From an uncultured bacterium (GTDB lineage: Bacteria > Planctomycetota > UBA8108): a stretch of DNA of 35,441 bases. Made by a program: the position numbers and the translations under genes. The notes below the pieces were generated by a model, which did not search any database, had not been told where the DNA came from, and worked only from the letters and a program-made list of their open reading frames with translations. Each line of letters opens with the position of its first letter. The first letter of the stretch is position 1. Below are positions 2,405 to 21,280 of the stretch, in pieces. The stretch covers positions 1 through 35,441 of the forward strand of contig CAJWMA010000005.1 of the NCBI GenBank assembly GCA_913042995.1, in the 5' to 3' direction.

Positions 2405-5400
2405 TCAGGCTTCGCAGCCGCCGCCCTCACAGGCTCCCAGGTCGTCAGGAGTCGGGTCGTCACCGCAGCTGAAAGCGGGAGGAGGCAGCGGCTCGTCCCC
2501 GCTGAAGAGATAGCCGAGCAGACGCACCGCGTCGGTCACAAGGAGCCTCCCATCATCATCTACATCCGCGGCATCCGGGCAGGGCAGCTCAAACCCTCCC
2601 GCAAAAAGGGTGAGCAGTATCTTAACCGCATCGGTAATGTCGAGCTCGCCCTCCGCGGTCACATCTCCGCGCCGAAACAGAACCGGGGGCTCAACCGGCT
2701 CTTCTTCACAGGCCGGACGGGAGACGAGAGACGGGGCGAGCGTCAGCATGAAGGAGAGGTCGGAGCTGTCGCGGCTGGAGTTGTGAACACTCACCGCCAG
2801 GACATTCTCTCCCTGCCGAAGAAGCCCGCCATCGATATCGAGCGAGGCGACAGCGCTCTCGACTGATCGCGACGCCGTGGTGTCGTGCGAGACTGCGCCC
2901 CCGGGCATATTGGCACGGCCCAGCTCTTCTCCATTGAGGTAGAGAACAAGGCCGTCATCGTAGACCGCGGTCAGGACAGCCAGGCTCAGCTCGGCAGGAC
3001 AATCGAGCCAGAATGATTTCCTGCAGAAAACGCTGACGTAGCGGTTCCGCATGTCGGCCAGCTCGGTCAGATCATCTCCATCTCCATAGCCGATTCCCGC
3101 GAGACCGCGGGGCCAGGAGGAATCATCGAAGCCCGGCTCGCTCCAGTCGCCGGGAGGCTGCTCTTCTCCCGGCAGGTAGCTCCAGGATCCGTTTCCTCCG
3201 ATCAGCAGATAGGACGCCTCCAGCCGGGGAATCATCGAGAGATCGCCGGAGCCGGAGCCGTTGTTGTGGACCTCGATCGCCAGCACGTTGACGCCGGCGC
3301 GCAGCAGCCCCGGAGACAGCTCGAACACCTCGGGCTCCCCGGCCTCACGGCTCGAATCCGGCCGCTGGTTCCTGCCTACGGGGCTGCCGGGAAGGCCCAT
3401 GTTCTCAGACCGCGCCACCTCGGCGCCGTTCAGATAGGCGACAAAGCCGTCATCGTAGTCGATGCTCAGCTCCAGCGTCTCGACGATGCCGGGATTGGCC
3501 ACCTCGAAATTCTTCCGGCAATAGACGGTCAGGTAGCGGTTCTCCATATCGTCCAGAACGGTCGCATCATCTCCATCTCCGTAGCCGATACCGCTCGGAC
3601 CGACAAGCCAGGAATCATCTGGAACGAAATCGACCTCCCTCCACTCCTCGTCCACCGCGCGGTTGCCCTTGAAATAATCCCAATCGTCCCCGATAGAGAC
3701 AGGCTCACGCCGCTCGATGAGCGGGTATTCGACGAGCAACCTCGGAGCGGAGGCGCCGCTGTCCGATGAGGCGAACTGCCATCCATCAGAGCCAACCGGC
3801 AGGAAGGCCCAGCCATTATTGGCGGAGGGCTCGAGTGACCAGGCCGCCAGGCTCTCGGTGACGTCAACCTCTACTGTGCCTCCCGCGCCGACCACGTCAG
3901 CCTGCAACGCGGAAACGGACTCGACCCCCGGCTGGATTCCATCGCCGCCGAAGTCGCTCCAGACGGAAAGCTCGCTCCAGGGCTGGAGCATCCTGTAGAT
4001 TGCGGCGCCATCGCCGGTGTTGGTCGTCTCCAGTTCGAGCCAGGCTCTCTCAATCTCCACCCCGGGAGGCAGTTGCCCCGGCTGCGGTCCGAAGATGTCG
4101 CCGAAACGCAACAACCCCTGGGTAGCGTTGCCCGACCCGCCTGGAGAGTCGCTGTCAATGCGCAGGGCCTGGTCCGCGCCATGCGCTTCAGCCGGCGAGG
4201 CCGCCCCGACATAGGTGTCGACCGCCGCCGAATATCCATCACTACCCTGTCGAAAGCTCTCCCTCGCCTTGCTGCCGACCAGGATCTCGACATTAACCTC
4301 CACCTGGTCTACATGAAGCAGCTCTCCATCATGAGCGACCAGCGACAGGAGGTACTGTCCTGACTCTGAAAAAGAAGCCGTTGTCGAAGGCGCGCCAGGA
4401 TCCGTGAAAACGACCTCTCCGGGACCGCTGATGACCGCCCAGGAGCTCTCCAGCTCCCTGTCCACAGGCAGGCCATCATCACTCACCGTTGCGCGAAGGC
4501 GAACGGTGTCGCCGAGAAGAACGACGTCCATGTCCGCGCCCGCCAGCGCCCGGGGGCGCTCATTGACTCCGTCGAGAGCCGGGTAGGCGTAGGTTGAGCA
4601 GGTTCTGTCGGTCTCGTTGATGTCCCTGCAGCAGGAAGCGTACATCAGCGCCCTGGAGTCCTCGACATGTCCGAAGCCGAGCCCGTGGCCGAGCTCGTGC
4701 GCCATCATGCTTCTGTAGCCGGTAGCGCCCAGGCAGCCAACGCCCTCGTTCACCACAACGAACCAGCCGGTGATGGTGAGCCAGCTCTCGCCGTCAAAGC
4801 TATGGGTCGACGTCGTGATCGGCCCGCCATAGGCGAGCACTCCGCCGCAGCCCTCGATGTCGGCGATATCGGAGCACGGATCGCCAAAGAGGATGAAATT
4901 GCTCTCGGCGCCCTGGCTTCGAGCGCAATCGATACCGGGATCCCTGGAGCCGCCAAAGTAGAGGTTGCAGCTCGTGTCCGGAATCTCCATCCACAGCTCC
5001 ATGGCCTGCTGAACAATCCAGAAGCCTCCATCGCGCACCGAGGAATCACCCGCGCTATTGCCGTAGATCGTCGCCCATTCGCCCGTGTCAAAACGGCGCC
5101 ACCGCATCTTCCTCCCGTTGTCGGAAAAGATGGAACAGCCCTCCGGCTGCTCAGCACCGCCTCCATCTCCTCCGGGGACCGGCCCGGGACCCAGGCCCTC
5201 CGAGCTCCACTCGGCTCCAGCTCCCAGCAGCGCCGGCAGGTAGTTGAGAAAGGCCGCCTTGTCAAAAGGCCCGGGGGGCTCGGCCGCCAGCCCATCGGGC
5301 CTTGGCAACAGGCCGGCCGGATGCTCATCGATCGGAGAGAGAAGCTCGCGGCCGGCGGCCGTGGTCTCTACCAGCACTCCGTAAAAGAGCATTGCGGGAA

Positions 5401-5791
5401 TCCAGAGCGCCTCCGACTTCCGGCTCAGGCACAACAGATAGTTCTCATCTTCGGAAAAATCCGGAGAGCCGGGAACAAACCAGGCCCGGCTCTCGAGCTC
5501 GCCGCCCGGGGTCTCTACCTTGATGACATCGCCCGGGACCGCAGGCCCCGAATAGCTCGAGAGCACCTCGAATTCAGTGGAGGTGAACACCAGCGGCCCC
5601 CGGGCTGCGGGGACCGAAGCGCGCGCGCGCGCGAAAACCACCGCATCGGCGGCCCGCGCAAGCTCGCCGTAATTCCTCGGCGCGATCAATGACGCGGCGG
5701 AAACCGGCAGGCCCGGGAAGATGACCAGGGCGAGAGCCGCCAGCGCCCGGACGACTGCCTGGCAAATCGAATGTTTTCCTGAAGCTCTCAT
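2405..5791 (-). CDS. Secreted multidomain protein: matrixin-like metalloprotease, Ig/PKD-like and DNRLRE-like regions, two W..GIGYGDGDD domains, C-terminal dockerin-like module
   Basis: ORF 2405..6037; likely start is the ATG at 5791 (MRASGKHSICQAVVRALAALALVIFPGLPVSAAS, signal peptide). Zinc motif MMAHELGHGLGFGHVEDSRALMY (HExxHxxGxxH plus Met-turn). GIGYGDGDD occurs twice. C-term RGDVTAEGELDITDAVKIL...DAADVDDDGRLLVTDAVRLLGYLF. Confidence 0.88.
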   Translation of the reverse strand: MRASGKHSICQAVVRALAALALVIFPGLPVSAASLIAPRNYGELARAADAVVFARARASVPAARGPLVFTSTEFEVLSSYSGPAVPGDVIKVETPGGELESRAWFVPGSPDFSEDENYLLCLSRKSEALWIPAMLFYGVLVETTAAGRELLSPIDEHPAGLLPRPDGLAAEPPGPFDKAAFLNYLPALLGAGAEWSSEGLGPGPVPGGDGGGAEQPEGCSIFSDNGRKMRWRRFDTGEWATIYGNSAGDSSVRDGGFWIVQQAMELWMEIPDTSCNLYFGGSRDPGIDCARSQGAESNFILFGDPCSDIADIEGCGGVLAYGGPITTSTHSFDGESWLTITGWFVVVNEGVGCLGATGYRSMMAHELGHGLGFGHVEDSRALMYASCCRDINETDRTCSTYAYPALDGVNERPRALAGADMDVVLLGDTVRLRATVSDDGLPVDRELESSWAVISGPGEVVFTDPGAPSTTASFSESGQYLLSLVAHDGELLHVDQVEVNVEILVGSKARESFRQGSDGYSAAVDTYVGAASPAEAHGADQALRIDSDSPGGSGNATQGLLRFGDIFGPQPGQLPPGVEIERAWLELETTNTGDGAAIYRMLQPWSELSVWSDFGGDGIQPGVESVSALQADVVGAGGTVEVDVTESLAAWSLEPSANNGWAFLPVGSDGWQFASSDSGASAPRLLVEYPLIERREPVSIGDDWDYFKGNRAVDEEWREVDFVPDDSWLVGPSGIGYGDGDDATVLDDMENRYLTVYCRKNFEVANPGIVETLELSIDYDDGFVAYLNGAEVARSENMGLPGSPVGRNQRPDSSREAGEPEVFELSPGLLRAGVNVLAIEVHNNGSGSGDLSMIPRLEASYLLIGGNGSWSYLPGEEQPPGDWSEPGFDDSSWPRGLAGIGYGDGDDLTELADMRNRYVSVFCRKSFWLDCPAELSLAVLTAVYDDGLVLYLNGEELGRANMPGGAVSHDTTASRSVESAVASLDIDGGLLRQGENVLAVSVHNSSRDSSDLSFMLTLAPSLVSRPACEEEPVEPPVLFRRGDVTAEGELDITDAVKILLTLFAGGFELPCPDAADVDDDGRLLVTDAVRLLGYLFSGDEPLPPPAFSCGDDPTPDDLGACEGGGCEA

Positions 5792-12277: not shown

Positions 12278-14143
12278 ATGAAACATCCCGCCTCACCCCG
12301 CGCAATGCCCGGACAGCGGCTCCATCGACTTTCCTCCCTGGTTCTTTGTGTCCTGTCGCTCTGCGGCCTGCCCGCGGGCGCTCAGCATTTCGACTGTATC
12401 GAGCTGAACGATGGGAACACCAACATCTTCATGACCCCGGATGTCTGCTTCAACGAGGAGAACCTCGACTGGTGCAATTGCGTAGACTCGGCCCTGACCC
12501 ACCCCGTGCGAGGTGAGACCAGCGGCTTCAGGCAGGCCATCCAATGGCTGAGCGGACAGCCCGGGATCGGCAATGCCCGTATCGAGATCGAGGGCGGCTC
12601 CCTCGACCTCTCCAATCTTTCCCCCGGTCAGCTGATAGGTACCGGCGAGGCGATGGAGCTGATTCCCCTCGGCTTCCCCTTTGTCGGAGGAGACTTCTTC
12701 GGTGTCCAGTTTGAAGTTCGGGTGGTCTCCGCGCGCGACAACACCGCCGATTTCCACGTCTCCATCACCTCGGTCACCCCCGCGGTCGAGGAGGCGATCG
12801 GCTACAACCCGACCGACCGGGAGCATTCCGATGGGCACCTGCTCACCGGGCGGCTCACAAGCACCGCCGGCGGCGGAGCGGTGATCGACTACCGCTATGC
12901 TACGGAAAACTTCGCGGGCGCCACGGTTCCCGCGCTGCTGCCCACCGAGGCGGCCATGCCGACCTTCACGGTACCGTTCGTGCTCGAGTTTTTCTCCCGC
13001 GAGAGCGGCATCTACACGGTCCCCGATGATGGAAACGTCCAGGTGCTGAGCACGATCCGCAGCTTCCTCGAAGACACGGTCGACGAGATCCTTCCCCTCG
13101 ATGCCGAGGACCTCTGCGAAGGGGTCGACGATTTCACCCATTGCAAGATGATCGAGGAAGATATCGAGATAAAGGCTTCGGCGGATGACAACAACCCGCC
13201 CACGGCAGTCATCACCGCGATCGACGCGGGAATCTTCCTGATGCTGGAGGATCCCGTCAACCTCGACACCTTCTGCGGCCGGGCCTATGTTCTTCTGCGA
13301 GGCAGGAACTCCGATGACGGAGATGGAGGCCACCAGGGTCTGACCTATAGATGGTCCATCCTGGAGGGTCCCGAGGAAGGCGCGGAAATACCCGCGAACA
13401 CCCACGATTTCATGGACACCCATGTGATCTTCACCGAGGCCGGGGTCTACGAAATCGGCCTCACCGTCGATGATGGACACGACGCCGACAGCTCATCGGA
13501 GGCCACCATCACGGTGGTCGTCTCAACCGAGCTGGACTTCAACGCTCCGCCGCTGATCGGGCTGAGGACCTCGCCGGCGCCGCCAGACGTCCAGCTCGCC
13601 GGCGGCTCAGCCAGCGTAACCCTGGACGCACGCGATTCCGATGGCGGCGGCGAAGGCTGCGAACAGGAGGTCTCCTTCCTCTGGCGGCAGCTTGGCGGCC
13701 CCGCCGACGCGGTCATCAGGAATCCGCGGGAGGCTGTCACGCAAGTCGTCTTTGATACCGCTGGAGCCTATCTCTTCGAGATCGAGGTTGACGACGGCGG
13801 CTTCCAGGACAACATCTCGGTTGAGGAGGTGGAGGTCATCGTCACGGCCGCCGCCGTAACCGGCGGCTTCCGGCGCGGCGATGTCGACGACAGCGGCCGG
13901 CTCAACATCACCGACGCCATCACCGTCCTCAACTGGCTCTTCCTCGGCAGCGCTACGCCGAGCTGCACCGATGCGGCGGACGCCGATGACAACGGGCGAA
14001 ACAATATCACCGACGCGATCCAGCTGCTCCAGTTCCTCTTCCTCGGCGGCCCTCCCCCGCCGGCTCCCGGCAGGGACGACTGCGGAGTCGATCCGACCGC
14101 CGACCTCCTCTCGGACTGCGACTACCAGTCCTGCGGAGACTGA
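12278..14143 (+). CDS. Secreted protein: novel N-terminal region, two PKD/Ig-like domains, C-terminal dockerin-like module
   Basis: In-frame ATG at 12278 (or 12305) gives MKHPASPRAMPGQRLHRLSSLVLCVLSLCGLPAGAQ signal peptide; the ORF track start at 11945 is too early. PKD-like LTYRWSILEGPEEG...VYEIGLTVDDGH. C-term RGDVDDSGRLNITDAITVLNWLF...DAADADDNGRNNITDAIQLLQFLFLGG. Confidence 0.85.
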   Translation: MKHPASPRAMPGQRLHRLSSLVLCVLSLCGLPAGAQHFDCIELNDGNTNIFMTPDVCFNEENLDWCNCVDSALTHPVRGETSGFRQAIQWLSGQPGIGNARIEIEGGSLDLSNLSPGQLIGTGEAMELIPLGFPFVGGDFFGVQFEVRVVSARDNTADFHVSITSVTPAVEEAIGYNPTDREHSDGHLLTGRLTSTAGGGAVIDYRYATENFAGATVPALLPTEAAMPTFTVPFVLEFFSRESGIYTVPDDGNVQVLSTIRSFLEDTVDEILPLDAEDLCEGVDDFTHCKMIEEDIEIKASADDNNPPTAVITAIDAGIFLMLEDPVNLDTFCGRAYVLLRGRNSDDGDGGHQGLTYRWSILEGPEEGAEIPANTHDFMDTHVIFTEAGVYEIGLTVDDGHDADSSSEATITVVVSTELDFNAPPLIGLRTSPAPPDVQLAGGSASVTLDARDSDGGGEGCEQEVSFLWRQLGGPADAVIRNPREAVTQVVFDTAGAYLFEIEVDDGGFQDNISVEEVEVIVTAAAVTGGFRRGDVDDSGRLNITDAITVLNWLFLGSATPSCTDAADADDNGRNNITDAIQLLQFLFLGGPPPPAPGRDDCGVDPTADLLSDCDYQSCGD

Positions 14144-15006: not shown

Positions 15007-17622
15007 ATGTCCATCACAAAGCTCGTCTTCTATTGCATTCCAGTCTGCATGTTGTTGCTTGTCCCGAACTCCAGCCTCAACGCGCAGAGCCCCCTGGTCC
15101 AGGAAGGAGACACCTGGCGCTTCTTCAGGGCGGTCTCCGCGCCGCCCGAGACCTGGGTCGACCTTGAATTCAACGCGGAGGAGGCCGGCTGGGAGAGCGG
15201 CCCGGGCGGCATCGGCTACGGAGACGAAGATGATGCCACCGTTCTCGATGACATGGCCGACAACTACATCGCCGTCTACATGCGCATCGAATTCGATGTC
15301 CCCGCTGAGCTTGCCGAGGCCTGGCTGCAGCTCCGAGTGCGCTACGATGATTCCTTCGTGGCCTACATCGATGGTGAAGAGGTCGCTCGCCGGGGCATCG
15401 ACGGATCCCCGCCGCTCTTTGACCAGGGAGCCTCTGTTGAACATGAGATCACCAGCGCGGACGGCTTTGATGAAGAGTTCCTGCTCGAGCAGACGGAGCT
15501 TGATACCGGCCGACACGTGCTTGCCGTCGAGGTTCACAATATAACCCTCGGCTCCAGCGACCTGTCGTTCTCCGCCGAGTTGGTCGGCTCGCAGCTGCTC
15601 GTGACCTCTGTAGACCCGGCCTTCGGCCCGCTGGAGGGCGGAAACACGGTGAGAATCCACGCGCTTGGAATTTTCCCGGGGCTCAATCCGGATGTCATCT
15701 TCGGCAACCTGGAGTCGCCCTCGGTTACCGTCGAAGACGAGTACATCGAGGCCGAGGTGCCCGCGGCGAAAGTCCCCGGAGCCGTGGATATCATCATCGA
15801 TACGGTAAACGCCACGACCGTCATCCCGGCCGGCTACATCTACGCCAACCCGGATGGGGGCATAGGAGGTCTCGATTTCACCGGCGGCCCCTACGCGACC
15901 GCGGAGGGCTTCAGCGGCATACTCGGAGAAGGAACCCTGCAGGCCTGGTTCCGGCGTGGAGCGGGGCAAGGCCAGTTCGCCAATTTCATCTACAGCCCCC
16001 TTGCCTCCATCGAGGCCGCGGACGGCTCCGACGCCTTCATCCTCGAGGTGAGACCCGGCAATATCCGCGCGCGGACCGCAGCAGATGGAGACTTCAACGA
16101 TCTTACCGCCACGACCGACCTGCCCGAGGGAGAGTGGCACAACATCTGCTGCACCTTCTCCGAGCGAGGCCGGGCGGTCTACCTCGATGGCCGGCAGATA
16201 GCCGCCGACAACTTCTCTACCAATCTCAGCGACTGCGACCGGATTCGCCTGGGCTCCCGTTTTGAACAAGACGGAGGCTTCTTTTCCGGAGATCTCATCG
16301 GCACCATCCACTCCGCCGCCGTCTGGGGCTTCGAGCGGTTCGAGGAGGAGATTCAACAAGAGCTCTTCATGCCCCCGTCCGAAGACCCCTACATTGGAGC
16401 GAGCTGGGAGCTGAATGAAGGCGTTGGAGACCGCGCGAGCGATTCCGGCGACCTCGGAGCCGATCTCATCTTCGGCGCCGGGCCCGGCGCGGACGCGGAT
16501 GATCCCGACTGGATCACCATCGACGATTTCCCAATCTTCATGGTCACCGGGATCCAGCCCGCATCAGGGCCGCTCGCCGGAGGTGAGATGGTCAGGATCT
16601 TCGGCGCCGGCTTTCCGCTCGAGGGAGAGGTGACCATCAGCTTCGTGGACCGGCTGGCTCCTTTCCTGGCGACGCCCTCGCCCACGGTCAGCGTCCTCAG
16701 CAATTGGGAGATCACCGCCGAGGTTCCCGCGGCGGAAGATTTCCAGGTGGTCGACATCCTGGTGGAAACCCCGGCCGGGAGCGGCCTCCTGGAGGCCGCC
16801 TATACCTACGCCCCCGACCCTGCCAGCATCTTCACGACGATCGAGGAGGGCGACATCTGGGACTACATCATCGCCAACGAGGCGATGCCGGAGGGCTGGA
16901 ACCTGCCTGAGTTCAGGCCGCAGGAAAACGGCTGGGAGAGAGGACCGACCGGAATCGGCTACGGAGACGGTGACGATGCGACCATCGTCACCGGTGTCCA
17001 GGACCAGACCCCGGCGGTCTACGCCCGCCGCGAATGGCTGCTCAGCGGCGGAGGCGAAAACATGAGCTTCCTGCGGTTCAGGATCCGCTATGACGATGGC
17101 TTCGTCGCCTACCTCAACGGCACCGAGGTCGCCCGCGCCAATCTCGACGGAGTTCCGCCGGCCTTTGACGAGCTGGCGACCGCCACCCACGAAATCACCG
17201 GCGGCGAGGGCGTCTTCGATGAGGTCATCGATCTCACCGATTTCCGTGACAGCCTCCGCAACGGTCTCAACGTGCTGGCAATCGAGGTCCACAACAACAC
17301 CCTCGGCTCCAGCGACATGTCTCTCTCCGCCGAGCTCGAATTCTCCGCGCCCGGCGAGACCTTCATCCGAGGAGATGTCGACAACAACCAGAGCTGGAAC
17401 GTCACCGACGCGGTCAAGATCCTGCTGCACGCCTTTACGGGCGCTGAGCTGCCCTGCCTCGAGGCCGCCGATGTCGACGACAGCGGCCGCATCGACCTGG
17501 AAGACGGCGTCGGGTTGCTGAACTTCGTCTTCAGACAGGGCGAGGCGCCGCCGCCGCCGCTCTACGAGGCGCTGCCGGACCTCGACAGCGACGAGCTGGG
17601 GTGTGAGTCCTTCGGGGACTAG
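15007..17622 (+). CDS. Secreted multidomain protein: GIGYGDGDD domain - IPT/TIG - LamG - IPT/TIG - GIGYGDGDD domain - dockerin-like
   Basis: Start at ATG 15007 (MSITKLVFYCIPVCMLLLVPNSSLNAQ). GIGYGDEDDATVLDDM and GIGYGDGDDATIVTGV; VTSVDPAFGPLEGGNTVRI and VTGIQPASGPLAGGEMVRIFGAGF (IPT); LQAWFRRG...EGEWHNICCTFSERGRAVYLDGRQI (LamG); RGDVDNNQSWNVTDAVKILL...DVDDSGRIDLEDGVGLLNFVF. Confidence 0.87.
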   Translation: MSITKLVFYCIPVCMLLLVPNSSLNAQSPLVQEGDTWRFFRAVSAPPETWVDLEFNAEEAGWESGPGGIGYGDEDDATVLDDMADNYIAVYMRIEFDVPAELAEAWLQLRVRYDDSFVAYIDGEEVARRGIDGSPPLFDQGASVEHEITSADGFDEEFLLEQTELDTGRHVLAVEVHNITLGSSDLSFSAELVGSQLLVTSVDPAFGPLEGGNTVRIHALGIFPGLNPDVIFGNLESPSVTVEDEYIEAEVPAAKVPGAVDIIIDTVNATTVIPAGYIYANPDGGIGGLDFTGGPYATAEGFSGILGEGTLQAWFRRGAGQGQFANFIYSPLASIEAADGSDAFILEVRPGNIRARTAADGDFNDLTATTDLPEGEWHNICCTFSERGRAVYLDGRQIAADNFSTNLSDCDRIRLGSRFEQDGGFFSGDLIGTIHSAAVWGFERFEEEIQQELFMPPSEDPYIGASWELNEGVGDRASDSGDLGADLIFGAGPGADADDPDWITIDDFPIFMVTGIQPASGPLAGGEMVRIFGAGFPLEGEVTISFVDRLAPFLATPSPTVSVLSNWEITAEVPAAEDFQVVDILVETPAGSGLLEAAYTYAPDPASIFTTIEEGDIWDYIIANEAMPEGWNLPEFRPQENGWERGPTGIGYGDGDDATIVTGVQDQTPAVYARREWLLSGGGENMSFLRFRIRYDDGFVAYLNGTEVARANLDGVPPAFDELATATHEITGGEGVFDEVIDLTDFRDSLRNGLNVLAIEVHNNTLGSSDMSLSAELEFSAPGETFIRGDVDNNQSWNVTDAVKILLHAFTGAELPCLEAADVDDSGRIDLEDGVGLLNFVFRQGEAPPPPLYEALPDLDSDELGCESFGD

Positions 17623-17636
17623 CCTCGAGGCTCCCC

Positions 17637-18401
17637 TCAGGTCAGATCACGGTACTCTCGCCTGGAGAACCAGTACATTCCCAGAGCCAGGAAGACAGCG
17701 GTAGCCGCCAGGAGCGAAACGGCCGCATCATCTCCCTCCACCGGCTGAAAGATCGGCGTGTTTCTCGGCTTGATACCATGTCCGGAGCCAGCATCGTAGA
17801 GCATGCAGCGGACATAGAAGCTGATGGAGATCCGCTTGAGCACGCCCGGCACCTGGCCCATAAAAAACTCCACCAGGAACACATGGGCTACCCCGATCAG
17901 CGTCGCGTTGCGAAAGACGGCGCCCAGCCAGCCGAAGAAGGCCAGGTAGGCGAAAGTACCCAGGGCGATCGTCGGCAGGAACATCCAGGCGACCTCCAAC
18001 AGCGGCAGCGGCAGACCGCCGCAGGCCGATGCGACAGCGCAGAGCCCGAAGACCGCGCCGAGGGAGATACCAAGAGCCAGCGGAAGAGCCCCAAGCAGCT
18101 TGGCCAGGTAGAGACTCCAGCGCGAGATCGGACGGGTCGAGAGATAGACCAGGGTTTTGTCCTCACGATCGTCCCCGATAACGGCCGTCCCCAGGGTCAG
18201 GGTAATGATCGGCAGGAAGAACCGGCAGAAGGGCAGCTCGATGATCCAGCGCCCGAAGCTCTTGATCTTCCAGGGGTCGATCAGTCCCGTCGTACCCACC
18301 AGCACGGCCAGCACAAGAAACAGGATGAGGGCGACGACGAGACGGCGGGGGCGGAGCTGTCGGCGAAGACTGAAAAAGACGAGGTAGAGCCAGGAATTCA
18401 C
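17637..18401 (-). CDS. ABC-2 type transporter permease
   Basis: Hydrophobic; FCRFFLPIITLTLGTAVIGDDREDKTLVYLSTRPISRWSLYLAKLLGALPLA typical of ABC-2 permeases; downstream of and overlapping an ABC ATPase. Confidence 0.85.
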   Translation of the reverse strand: MNSWLYLVFFSLRRQLRPRRLVVALILFLVLAVLVGTTGLIDPWKIKSFGRWIIELPFCRFFLPIITLTLGTAVIGDDREDKTLVYLSTRPISRWSLYLAKLLGALPLALGISLGAVFGLCAVASACGGLPLPLLEVAWMFLPTIALGTFAYLAFFGWLGAVFRNATLIGVAHVFLVEFFMGQVPGVLKRISISFYVRCMLYDAGSGHGIKPRNTPIFQPVEGDDAAVSLLAATAVFLALGMYWFSRREYRDLT

Positions 18402-19348
18402 GCGCCGCCTCCCATCTCTTCTCCAACCAGGTAGCCGAAGACAGCCTCTACCGAAGCATCGAGAGGAACCAACCGCTCGATGCCGATGCCAAGCTCTGAG
18501 ACCAGCCCTGGAAGCGCGCGGTAGAAACTCTCGACCTGGGGAACGCTGAGCACCAGGTCCTCTTCGTCGAGCCCCCCCCGGACCTTGAAAACAATGCCTG
18601 TAACGAGGCCGGACTCGAGCAACCGCGCACCGAGCTTCCTTGGGTCGGTGGCCGTGATGAGCAGCTTGAGTGGATGGTCCTTGAGAAGACCTCGGACCTC
18701 GGCCAGCGGACCCGAGGCGATCACATTGCCCTGGGCGAGAAAGAGGATCTGGTCGGTAACCGCCTCGATCTCCTCGAGGATATGACTCGAGACAAGGATC
18801 GTGACTCCCTCGGCGGCAAGGCCATCAAAGAGCCGCAGCATCTCACGTCGTCCCCTGGCGTCAATTCCGTTCAACGGCTCATCGAGCACCAGGATGTCGG
18901 GCTTGTGAACAAGGGCCTGGGCGAGCTTGGCGCGCTGGCGCATTCCCTTGGAGCAGGCCTTCAGACGCTTGCCGGCGAACTCGAGCGCGCCGGTCTTCTC
19001 GAGAGCTTCGCGCGCGAAGGCGTCGGCGCAGGCCCCGAGGCCGCAGAGACGGCCCATCGCGCGAACAAACCCAAGGACACTCATGTCTTCGTAAAAAGAG
19101 TCCCCCTCGGGCGAGTAGCCGAGGCGGCGGCGAGCTGAAGGCCTCTTCCAGACATCCTCACCGAAGATGAGCGCCTCGCCGTAGGACGGTTTGAGTTGGC
19201 CGGTGAGAATCTTCATCAGCGTCGATTTCCCGGCGCCGTTGGGGCCTACCAGTCCGGTGATCCCCGGCCGCAGTTCAAGACTGACCTTGTTGAGACCGGC
19301 GATCTCACCGTACCACTTGGCGAGCTCACGAATCGAGACCGGGTTCAT
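18398..19348 (-). CDS. ABC transporter ATP-binding protein
   Basis: Likely start ATG at 19348 (MNPVSIRELAKWYGEIAGLNKVSLELRPG); Walker A GPNGAGKST, Walker B PDILVLDEPLNGID, H-loop SSHILEE. Confidence 0.93.
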   Translation of the reverse strand: MNPVSIRELAKWYGEIAGLNKVSLELRPGITGLVGPNGAGKSTLMKILTGQLKPSYGEALIFGEDVWKRPSARRRLGYSPEGDSFYEDMSVLGFVRAMGRLCGLGACADAFAREALEKTGALEFAGKRLKACSKGMRQRAKLAQALVHKPDILVLDEPLNGIDARGRREMLRLFDGLAAEGVTILVSSHILEEIEAVTDQILFLAQGNVIASGPLAEVRGLLKDHPLKLLITATDPRKLGARLLESGLVTGIVFKVRGGLDEEDLVLSVPQVESFYRALPGLVSELGIGIERLVPLDASVEAVFGYLVGEEMGGGA

Positions 19349-20298
19349 GAAACCACCTCCACCGCGCGGGTCTTGTGCCAGAAGGCCCAGAGCGCCGCGC
19401 CAAGCCAGGCGGCCAGGGCGGCGACAGGCAGCCAGGGCGACGTGCTGAACAGGCTCGACTCGATTCCGAAAAACGCGTTCGAGCACCATTGCAGGAGGTA
19501 CCAGAAATCGAACAGCTTCCAGTAATCGGAGCCCCCCGCGTTCTCGTGAATGACCTCGGTAACGATCGGAAGGAAGATGAAGATCAACCCCCAGACCATG
19601 ACAATCGAGATCGTCCTCTGCAGCAGGGCCGCCACGCCCAGGAGCAGGGTCGACATGCCGACGCTCACAAGGAGGCCGTAGGCCAAAATCCCGAAGAGAA
19701 TGCGCCGCGACTCGATGAAGTAATCAAAGGTGTCTCCAAAGAGGCCATACTCGATAAAGAGCGCCAGGCAGGGAAGCAGGGTCAGCAGGCTCACCAGCAA
19801 GGACGTCGCCACCAGCTTGCCAAGGAAGTATTGCCAGCGCTCGAGCGGCTTGGAAAAGTAGAAGGTGAGCGACCTGAAGCGGAAATCGTTTCCAACCAGC
19901 ACCGCCCCGCTAATGGCCAACAGCAGCATGACAACGGTATTCTGGCTCGTGATAAAGTCTCTGAAGGATTCACCTGTGCCGGTAAAGATAAAGTTCCTGG
20001 CAAATGCGAGCGGTCCCTCCCCGAAACGCTGGCCCTTCAGCTGGGCAGCGAGCCCGGCAAGAAAATAGATCATGGCGCTGAAAAACAGGAAGTTGATAAG
20101 CCCCAGGCCCACAAAGACCTTGAAGATCCTGCGCTTGGTAACGAGCCCCAGGCCGACACGGGCGACCGGCCACCAGGAGAGCGCGGGAGAACGCGACTCC
20201 TCGGGCGCCGAGCTGATCGACCACCGGTCAACGACGGTAGCTCCCATCTTGGGCGGCAGCAGATCAACCTCGTCGATTTCCATTGGTTCCTCAGCCAT
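19345..20298 (-). CDS. ABC-2 family permease
   Basis: Likely start ATG at 20298 (MAEEPMEIDEVDLLPPKMGATVV); hydrophobic segments; FRSLTFYFSKPLERWQYFLGKLVATSLLVSLLTLLP. Confidence 0.85.
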   Translation of the reverse strand: MAEEPMEIDEVDLLPPKMGATVVDRWSISSAPEESRSPALSWWPVARVGLGLVTKRRIFKVFVGLGLINFLFFSAMIYFLAGLAAQLKGQRFGEGPLAFARNFIFTGTGESFRDFITSQNTVVMLLLAISGAVLVGNDFRFRSLTFYFSKPLERWQYFLGKLVATSLLVSLLTLLPCLALFIEYGLFGDTFDYFIESRRILFGILAYGLLVSVGMSTLLLGVAALLQRTISIVMVWGLIFIFLPIVTEVIHENAGGSDYWKLFDFWYLLQWCSNAFFGIESSLFSTSPWLPVAALAAWLGAALWAFWHKTRAVEVVS

Positions 20299-21280
20299 GG
20301 TTCTCCCCCGGAGGCGGTGGCGGCGGAGGCGAAGCGCTGGCAACAACACGCTCAAAGATCGTTTCCAGGTTCTCTTCGTGAGGCTGAAGCCCTGAAAGCA
20401 GGCAGGCAGGTTCGGCCTCACCGGCCGCTGCGAAGGCCTCGAAGAGCAATCTCGTGTCGGCCTCCCCGGGAAGGGTGGCGATGAAATCCCGGGGCGGCGC
20501 GCCCGGCCTCGCCGGGAGTGCCTCCAGCTCGACCCCGCGGTCGGTGAGCACCGCTTCGCAGGTCTCGACCGACCCGGTCACCTGGATCCGGTAGCTGTTG
20601 ACCCGGGAGGATGTGAGCTCCGAAACCTCGCCATGGGCCAGGACGCGCCCCCGGTCGAGGATGACGACCGAATCGCAGACCCGCTCGACATCGCCGAGGA
20701 GGTGGCTCGAGAGCAGGATCGATTTCCCCTGCTCCCGGTGGAGCCGAGAGATGAGCTCGAGCATGGCCGAACGACCGGCCGGATCGAGCCCGTTGGTCGG
20801 CTCATCGAGGATGACCAGGTCGGGATCATTGATGAGCGCCTGGGCGAGCTTGGCGCGCTGACGGATACCGGTCGGCTGCTCCTCGATCAGGCGGTAGCGC
20901 GCCTCCTCCAGCCCCAGCAGCGAGAGCACCTCGTGGGCGCGGCGGCGCGCATCGACAGCTTTCTGGCCGCACAGCTCGCCGGCGAGCGAAACGAACTGCA
21001 GAACCGAGAGCCCGGCGACGAAGCTGTCGTTCTCCGGCATATACCCCACCCGCGACCTCACCTTGCGGGACTCCCGGGCGGCGTCAAAGCCCAGCATCCA
21101 GGCTCTCCCCGCTGACGGAGCCAACAAGCCCATCAGCATGTTGAGCAGGGTCGATTTGCCGGCGCCATTAGGCCCCAGCAGGCCGACAACCCCGGGCTGC
21201 AGAACCACCTCGTCAGCCTCGAAGGCCAGGTGGGCGCCATACAGGCGCTTCAATTTTTCCAGCCGAATCAACTCACTCAC
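20291..21280 (-). CDS. ABC transporter ATP-binding protein
   Basis: MSELIRLEKLKRLYGAHLAFEADEVVLQPGVVGLLGPNGAGKSTLLNMLMGLL; DLVILDEPTNGLDPAGR; SSHLLGDVERV. Confidence 0.94.
   Translation of the reverse strand: MSELIRLEKLKRLYGAHLAFEADEVVLQPGVVGLLGPNGAGKSTLLNMLMGLLAPSAGRAWMLGFDAARESRKVRSRVGYMPENDSFVAGLSVLQFVSLAGELCGQKAVDARRRAHEVLSLLGLEEARYRLIEEQPTGIRQRAKLAQALINDPDLVILDEPTNGLDPAGRSAMLELISRLHREQGKSILLSSHLLGDVERVCDSVVILDRGRVLAHGEVSELTSSRVNSYRIQVTGSVETCEAVLTDRGVELEALPARPGAPPRDFIATLPGEADTRLLFEAFAAAGEAEPACLLSGLQPHEENLETIFERVVASASPPPPPPPGENHG

Follow-up and report, generated by a model that had tools for sequence, protein, structure and literature searches.

The window, by which we mean the whole 35,441-nucleotide stretch of DNA analysed, from an uncultured planctomycete, encodes three large exported proteins with a common C-terminal module, and this module is, by family and by fold, a true type I dockerin (PF00404) that recurs across the genome far beyond chance. 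Taken together, the evidence is on balance best explained by a general extracellular docking tag: a dockerin clasped through its C-terminal tail, for which divergent domains of cohesin fold would be the most likely partners. The high copy number of the module (on about 140 proteins) and its presence in every sampled genome of the class point to a large, undescribed extracellular docking system, and not to a sorting signal.

The window proteins and their shared end

The three ends are present in the window exactly as they were quoted in the sequence-only reading, and those of proteins 2 and 3 share 48–49% identity with that of protein 1, with short gaps only (Table 1). That reading had described a shared cysteine tail on otherwise unrelated N-terminal parts, and both descriptions hold in part: all three ends carry the tail, but that of protein 3 is without two of the four cysteines, and the N-terminal parts are not all unrelated, as a domain of ~170 residues (GYGDGDDxTVLDDM...YDDGFVAYLNG) is common to proteins 1 and 3, with two copies in each. 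This domain, which follows the pattern W..FDDS.W..G..GIGYGDGDD.TVLDDM...YDDGFVAYLNGEEVAR and is without a Pfam match, recurs in some 20 further proteins encoded by the genome. Next to protein 3, the other strand carries two genes for ABC transporter ATPases that alternate with two for membrane permeases (17637–21280, −).

Table 1. Features of the three dockerin-bearing proteins of the window
Feature	Position	Strand	Evidence
Protein 1: signal peptide (MRASGKHSICQAVVRALAALALVIFPGLPVSA), matrixin-like M10 peptidase domain, PKD, CBM96/DNRLRE, two GYGDGDD domains, dockerin	2405–5791	−	
Putatively clasped dockerin module of protein 1, four-Cys form (A, B, C, D); end CGDDPTPDDLGACEGGGCEA	2405–2674	−	Profile match, E 1.4e-47
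~170-residue GYGDGDD domain copies, protein 1	2699–3733	−	
Matrixin-like metallopeptidase segment of protein 1	4634–4876	−	Pfam PF00413, E 4e-6
Protein 2: signal peptide (MKHPASPRAMPGQRLHRLSSLVLCVLSLCGLPAGA), PKD domains, dockerin	12278–14143	+	
Putatively clasped dockerin module of protein 2, four-Cys form, modelled example; end CGVDPTADLLSDCDYQSCGD	13868–14143	+	Pfam Dockerin_1; AlphaFold pLDDT 87; PDB matches
Protein 3: signal peptide (MSITKLVFYCIPVCMLLLVPNSSLNA), GYGDGDD domain, LamG, TIG, GYGDGDD domain, dockerin	15007–17622	+	
~170-residue GYGDGDD domain copy, protein 3	15073–15645	+	
LamG-like domain of protein 3	15922–16356	+	Pfam PF13385, E 5e-15
~170-residue GYGDGDD domain copy, protein 3	16813–17340	+	
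Putatively clasped dockerin module of protein 3, two-Cys form (A and C only); end LPDLDSDELGCESFGD	17362–17622	+	Profile match, E 4.6e-44; Cys pattern

Identity and fold of the module

The earlier assignment of dockerin repeats is borne out by Pfam, by alignment and by modelling, all of which give two tandem repeats of a Ca2+ loop followed by a helix; the module would presumably bind Ca2+. For an AlphaFold model of the protein 2 module (pLDDT 87), the 32 best matches in the PDB are all dockerins, with TM-scores, normalised by target, of up to 0.86. Moreover, a profile of the module matches CelS and other clostridial dockerins of solved structure by sequence, at E-values of about 1e-5. Loop positions 10 and 11, the cohesin-contacting positions of type I dockerins, are occupied by an aliphatic residue plus Ser/Thr in 91 (repeat 1) and 89 (repeat 2) of the 105 type A modules defined below; that these positions are near-uniform, and symmetric between the repeats, suggests one shared type of partner.

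Copy number and placement in the genome

A profile built from the three window ends was searched against the whole 3.94 Mb genome, in which the window is contig C5, at a threshold of E ≤ 1e-3. It matched 147 places, corresponding to 142 distinct ORFs, which encode very different exported proteins. Pfam Dockerin_1 (PF00404) alone yields 56 places, most of them above cut-off, and the family is therefore more divergent than the Pfam model; NCBIfam contains no family for the module. The supposition that the carriers are exported is upheld by a signal-peptide-like start in 88 of the 91 module ORFs with a complete N-terminus (that is, uncut by a contig or locus end), as counted with a heuristic of our own and not with SignalP.

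The module lies at the extreme C-terminus in 122 of the 142 ORFs, and is N-terminal or internal in the other 20. Several of the N-terminal copies immediately follow the signal peptide, and in most the cysteine tail is retained; indeed, two sulfatases of this genome carry the module at opposite ends, one N-terminally (L034) and the other C-terminally (L054). Additionally, there are two single-repeat, or half, dockerins (L126:1776–2531 and L130:406–1374), which sit just after an N-terminal hydrophobic segment and are without the cysteine tail.

Cysteine pattern of the tail

The cysteines were aligned over all 122 C-terminal modules of the genome, comprising 105 of type A and 17 of type B. In type A, CysA lies between the repeats, whereas CysB (in CG.DPT), CysC (in D..L.C) and CysD (the last cysteine) are in the tail: all four are present in 72 of the modules, and CysB and CysD are found together in 72, are both missing from 31, and occur one without the other in just 2. 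Type B modules (PGD.NQD ... EC..I.GCP..C) always have CysA and three tail cysteines. The cysteine total is even in 100 of the 105 type A modules and in all 17 of type B, giving 117 of 122 overall, and extra cysteines are nearly always paired, at columns 10 and 41 (ten modules), 10 and 23 (six) or 8 and 43 (two).

The B–D pattern is repeated in loci from other genomes of the class, with both cysteines in 38 modules, neither in about 20, and one alone in 5, at least four of these five resembling one gene family; in two modules from these loci, CysA and CysC are lost together. When the data are pooled, the association between CysB and CysD has a Fisher p of 7e-36, a value that serves only as a guide since the sequences are related. 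When the B+D state is traced on a low-resolution tree of the repeat core, about 29 changes are counted (36–49 with shuffled labels), so that the pair has repeatedly been gained or lost as a unit. The main exception to the B–D rule is a set of modules (L154, L160, L169 and L170) in which CysC and CysD are kept, CysB is absent and the extra pair at columns 10 and 41 is present; a different cysteine pairing may apply to these. L086 of this genome is similar to this CysB-less family.

Because the number of cysteines is even, CysB and CysD are co-present or co-absent, and CysA goes with CysC, the tail is most likely a double disulfide clasp, with putative A–C and B–D bonds. In the model, a strand bridge links CysC (residue 88) to residue 4, which is at the N-terminal edge of the module. 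The 'acidic Cys tail' is an integral part of the dockerin domain, and the two-cysteine tail of protein 3 is one of the family's regular forms rather than a degenerate end. As the cysteines are even in number and covary, none would be left free for anchoring or attachment.

Cargo proteins

Pfam was used to scan 33 module proteins, namely the three of the window and 30 from elsewhere in the genome. The domains identified include sulfatase, sulfatase-modifying enzyme, subtilase, matrixin, DUF1800, Kazal inhibitors, YHYH and cytochrome c554, together with LamG, PKD, TIG, PPC, TSP3 and others. No cellulase families were found among these 33 proteins, and the dockerins on plant cell wall hydrolases that characterize a cellulosome were likewise not seen among them. 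An LTD-like motif is present in 11 of the 17 type B proteins versus 6 of the 105 type A proteins, and type B dockerins are mostly on LTD/CotH-like proteins (L105, L120, L121, L122, L124, L052, L067, L100, L131, L128 and L047); cargo class and dockerin type seem to go together.

Cohesin-like domains in the same genomes

The sequence-only reading had set the cellulosome aside for want of a cohesin. This is correct for canonical cohesins, of which none in the genome passes the Pfam cut-off (PF00963), but fails at the level of fold: genomes that have the module also encode two divergent families of cohesin-like domains. The first of these, the GWS family, is a domain of ~175 residues (GVQGWSxG...GTxAAD...AVVLSFxxPITL) with 18 copies in this genome. 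An AlphaFold model, calculated for a groundwater relative (L136), reaches a pLDDT of 90; its eight best matches in the PDB comprise only cohesins (5lxv, 4ums, 4dh2, 6kgf, 4fl4 and 2jh2; E-values of 5e-5 to 3e-3), with TM-scores of about 0.5–0.6, albeit at a sequence identity of only about 10%. The GWS domain is accordingly modelled with the cohesin β-sandwich fold; by sequence, the only hint from the PDB is a match to Scaffoldin C with an E-value of 0.38. The second family (contigs C116, C70 and C22) gives borderline matches to Pfam Cohesin, with E-values of 6e-4 to 0.04.

All 22 cohesin-like domains of the genome lie in ORFs that also encode a dockerin. The same is true of 57 of the 63 cohesin-like ORFs in loci from other genomes and relatives; of the six without a dockerin, five are truncated at the end of a contig or locus, and the last is a short ORF. 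There are one to three cohesin-like domains per protein. Since these domains sit on dockerin-bearing proteins, the usual division between scaffoldin and cargo is absent from the genome and from the loci of relatives: no separate scaffoldin was seen there, including the type with several canonical cohesins that defines a cellulosome, and no surface anchor was identified. The sharing of ORFs also makes the co-occurrence of cohesin and dockerin partly automatic, and the cohesin-like domain may itself be cargo; this co-occurrence and the fold of the candidates are what bears on the putative binding between the two. Coh-Doc and Coh-Coh-Doc genes form a tandem cluster (L086, on contig C145 of G000, and L134, L135 and L136), and they are clustered in relatives too.

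Distribution across Planctomycetota

The dockerin module was found, in high copy, in all 28 further genomes of the same class, with 59 to at least 133 copies each. Outside the class, it was found in 2 of 11 other genomes of the phylum in a first sample (one copy each), and in 6 of 140 in a wider draw at a stricter threshold (one to four copies). Each of the 29 class genomes, this one among them, has both cohesin-like families, and neither occurs in the 11 others from the phylum. The distribution is that of one clade, and therefore amounts to a single evolutionary event, a point that counts against the docking reading. For a 9.1 Mb genome (G008), about 590 dockerin ORFs are extrapolated from a 186 kb sample (95% interval 240–970). 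The closest named genome found to that studied here is Planctomycetes bacterium UBA1662 (95% identity over a 172-residue domain), followed by the Planctomycetota MAG ALOHA_A2.5_93 and then by a groundwater MAG.

A putative docking system and its alternatives

We propose that the module functions as a type I dockerin with two Ca2+-binding repeats, onto which the Pro-rich C-terminal extension would fold back: CysA, in the loop between the repeats, would pair with CysC of the D..L.C motif, and CysB of the CG.DPT motif with CysD. The tag is found at one end or the other of about 140 exported proteins, among them peptidases, sulfatases, inhibitors and binding modules, which are presumably located at the cell surface. 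Its likeliest partners would be the divergent cohesin-fold domains that this genome encodes in its Coh-Doc and Coh-Coh-Doc proteins; as a dockerin is also present on these proteins, they could link to each other and recruit other tagged proteins, with no need for a separate scaffoldin. A more far-reaching version, to which we give only tentative credence, is a class-wide, non-cellulosomal assembly in which roughly 100–600 exported proteins per genome dock onto a self-chaining Coh-Doc scaffold, with types A and B acting as two docking channels.

The main rival to this scheme takes the cohesin-like domains to be one more kind of cargo; the dockerins would then have a different partner, such as an envelope protein or a divergent scaffold that has no dockerin. 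It is in keeping with the fusion of the cohesin-like domains to dockerins in all but one of the complete ORFs, and with the failure to find a separate scaffoldin or anchor; however, the match in fold points to cohesins in particular, which are what dockerins pair with structurally, and both cohesin-like families occur in every class genome examined, such that we regard this as a doubtful, albeit serious, alternative. Near-uniform and symmetric recognition positions in both repeats, over ~105 proteins, exceed the needs of a simple cap. We therefore consider it unlikely that the modules have a stability or cell–cell role that does not involve docking, as Ca2+-dependent, disulfide-locked caps protecting exported proteins in the environment, even though a disulfide clasp and Ca2+ repeats would both be stabilising and the module is found on very different proteins.

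The sequence-only reading had also entertained a C-terminal sorting signal, whereby the end would be recognised by a sortase, an exosortase or a type IX-like machine, and then cut or attached to the surface. The extreme C-terminal position of 122 of the 142 modules, on signal-peptide proteins, would suit such a role, but the 20 N-terminal or internal modules, most with an intact cysteine tail, together with the sulfatases tagged at opposite ends, rule against it. Moreover, searches of the genome found neither a sortase nor an exosortase, and the module ends have no hydrophobic segment and no basic end; we judge this explanation very improbable. A search for SprA of the type IX translocon gave no match, and the control search was equally silent. 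It is harder still to credit that free tail cysteines cross-link covalently to a Cys-rich protein wall. The tail is Cys-rich and the planctomycete wall is protein-rich, but the cysteines are even in number in 117 of the 122 C-terminal modules and pairs are lost in step, a pattern replicated in other class genomes; on grounds of this parity, cross-linking was rejected.

Most of what is known of dockerins comes from the cellulosomes of a few anaerobes. In a whole class of uncultured aquatic planctomycetes, a large share of the secretome carries a dockerin that is probably clasped by disulfides. Were the proposed binding true, nature would have a second large docking system, with a cargo of sulfatases, peptidases and binding modules in place of cellulases, and this system would furnish oxidation-stabilised docking tags for engineering.

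Comparison with known systems

The dockerin family is already known. In the papers searched we came across no account of the putative disulfide clasp, of the expansion throughout the class or of the fused cohesin-like domains, and none of a Cys-clasped planctomycete dockerin. The module shares with the clostridial type I dockerin (PF00404; C. thermocellum CelS, 2mte, and ScaB-type, 4uyq) its two Ca2+-loop/helix repeats, its fold, its near-symmetry and its usual occurrence once per exported protein. It differs in the addition of a Pro-rich extension with paired cysteines (A–C and B–D) and in its cargo, which here comprises sulfatases, peptidases, LTD/CotH-like proteins and inhibitors, with no cellulase among those scanned. 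An intramolecular clasp is on record for dockerins (R. flavefaciens ScaA; Slutzki 2013, as cited in PMC5864761), and it reportedly holds the termini together and stabilizes the module. The termini would be held together in the present case also, although here most likely by two disulfides and a tail of ~25 residues.

A 'planctosome' has been proposed for the freshwater Nemodlikiaceae, of class Phycisphaerae (PMC6461901), and this too involves non-cellulosomal cohesin/dockerin proteins in Planctomycetota, associated with peptidases, lamin-tail and TSP3 domains. However, it consists of an anchoring cohesin protein and a few partners, whereas here there are at least 100 dockerins per genome and no anchor was found; as far as can be told, the host class is also different. 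A very large dockerin repertoire is likewise seen in R. flavefaciens FD-1, with 222 dockerin proteins (PMC2930009), but those are cellulosomal and have true scaffoldins, unlike here, and the text of that paper makes no mention of cysteine or disulfide. Finally, the GWS domain shares the β-sandwich fold of Pfam Cohesin (PF00963), and the second family approaches it with a borderline score; in contrast to that family, the domains described here fall below its cut-off, have ~10% identity, and lie beside a dockerin in the same protein.
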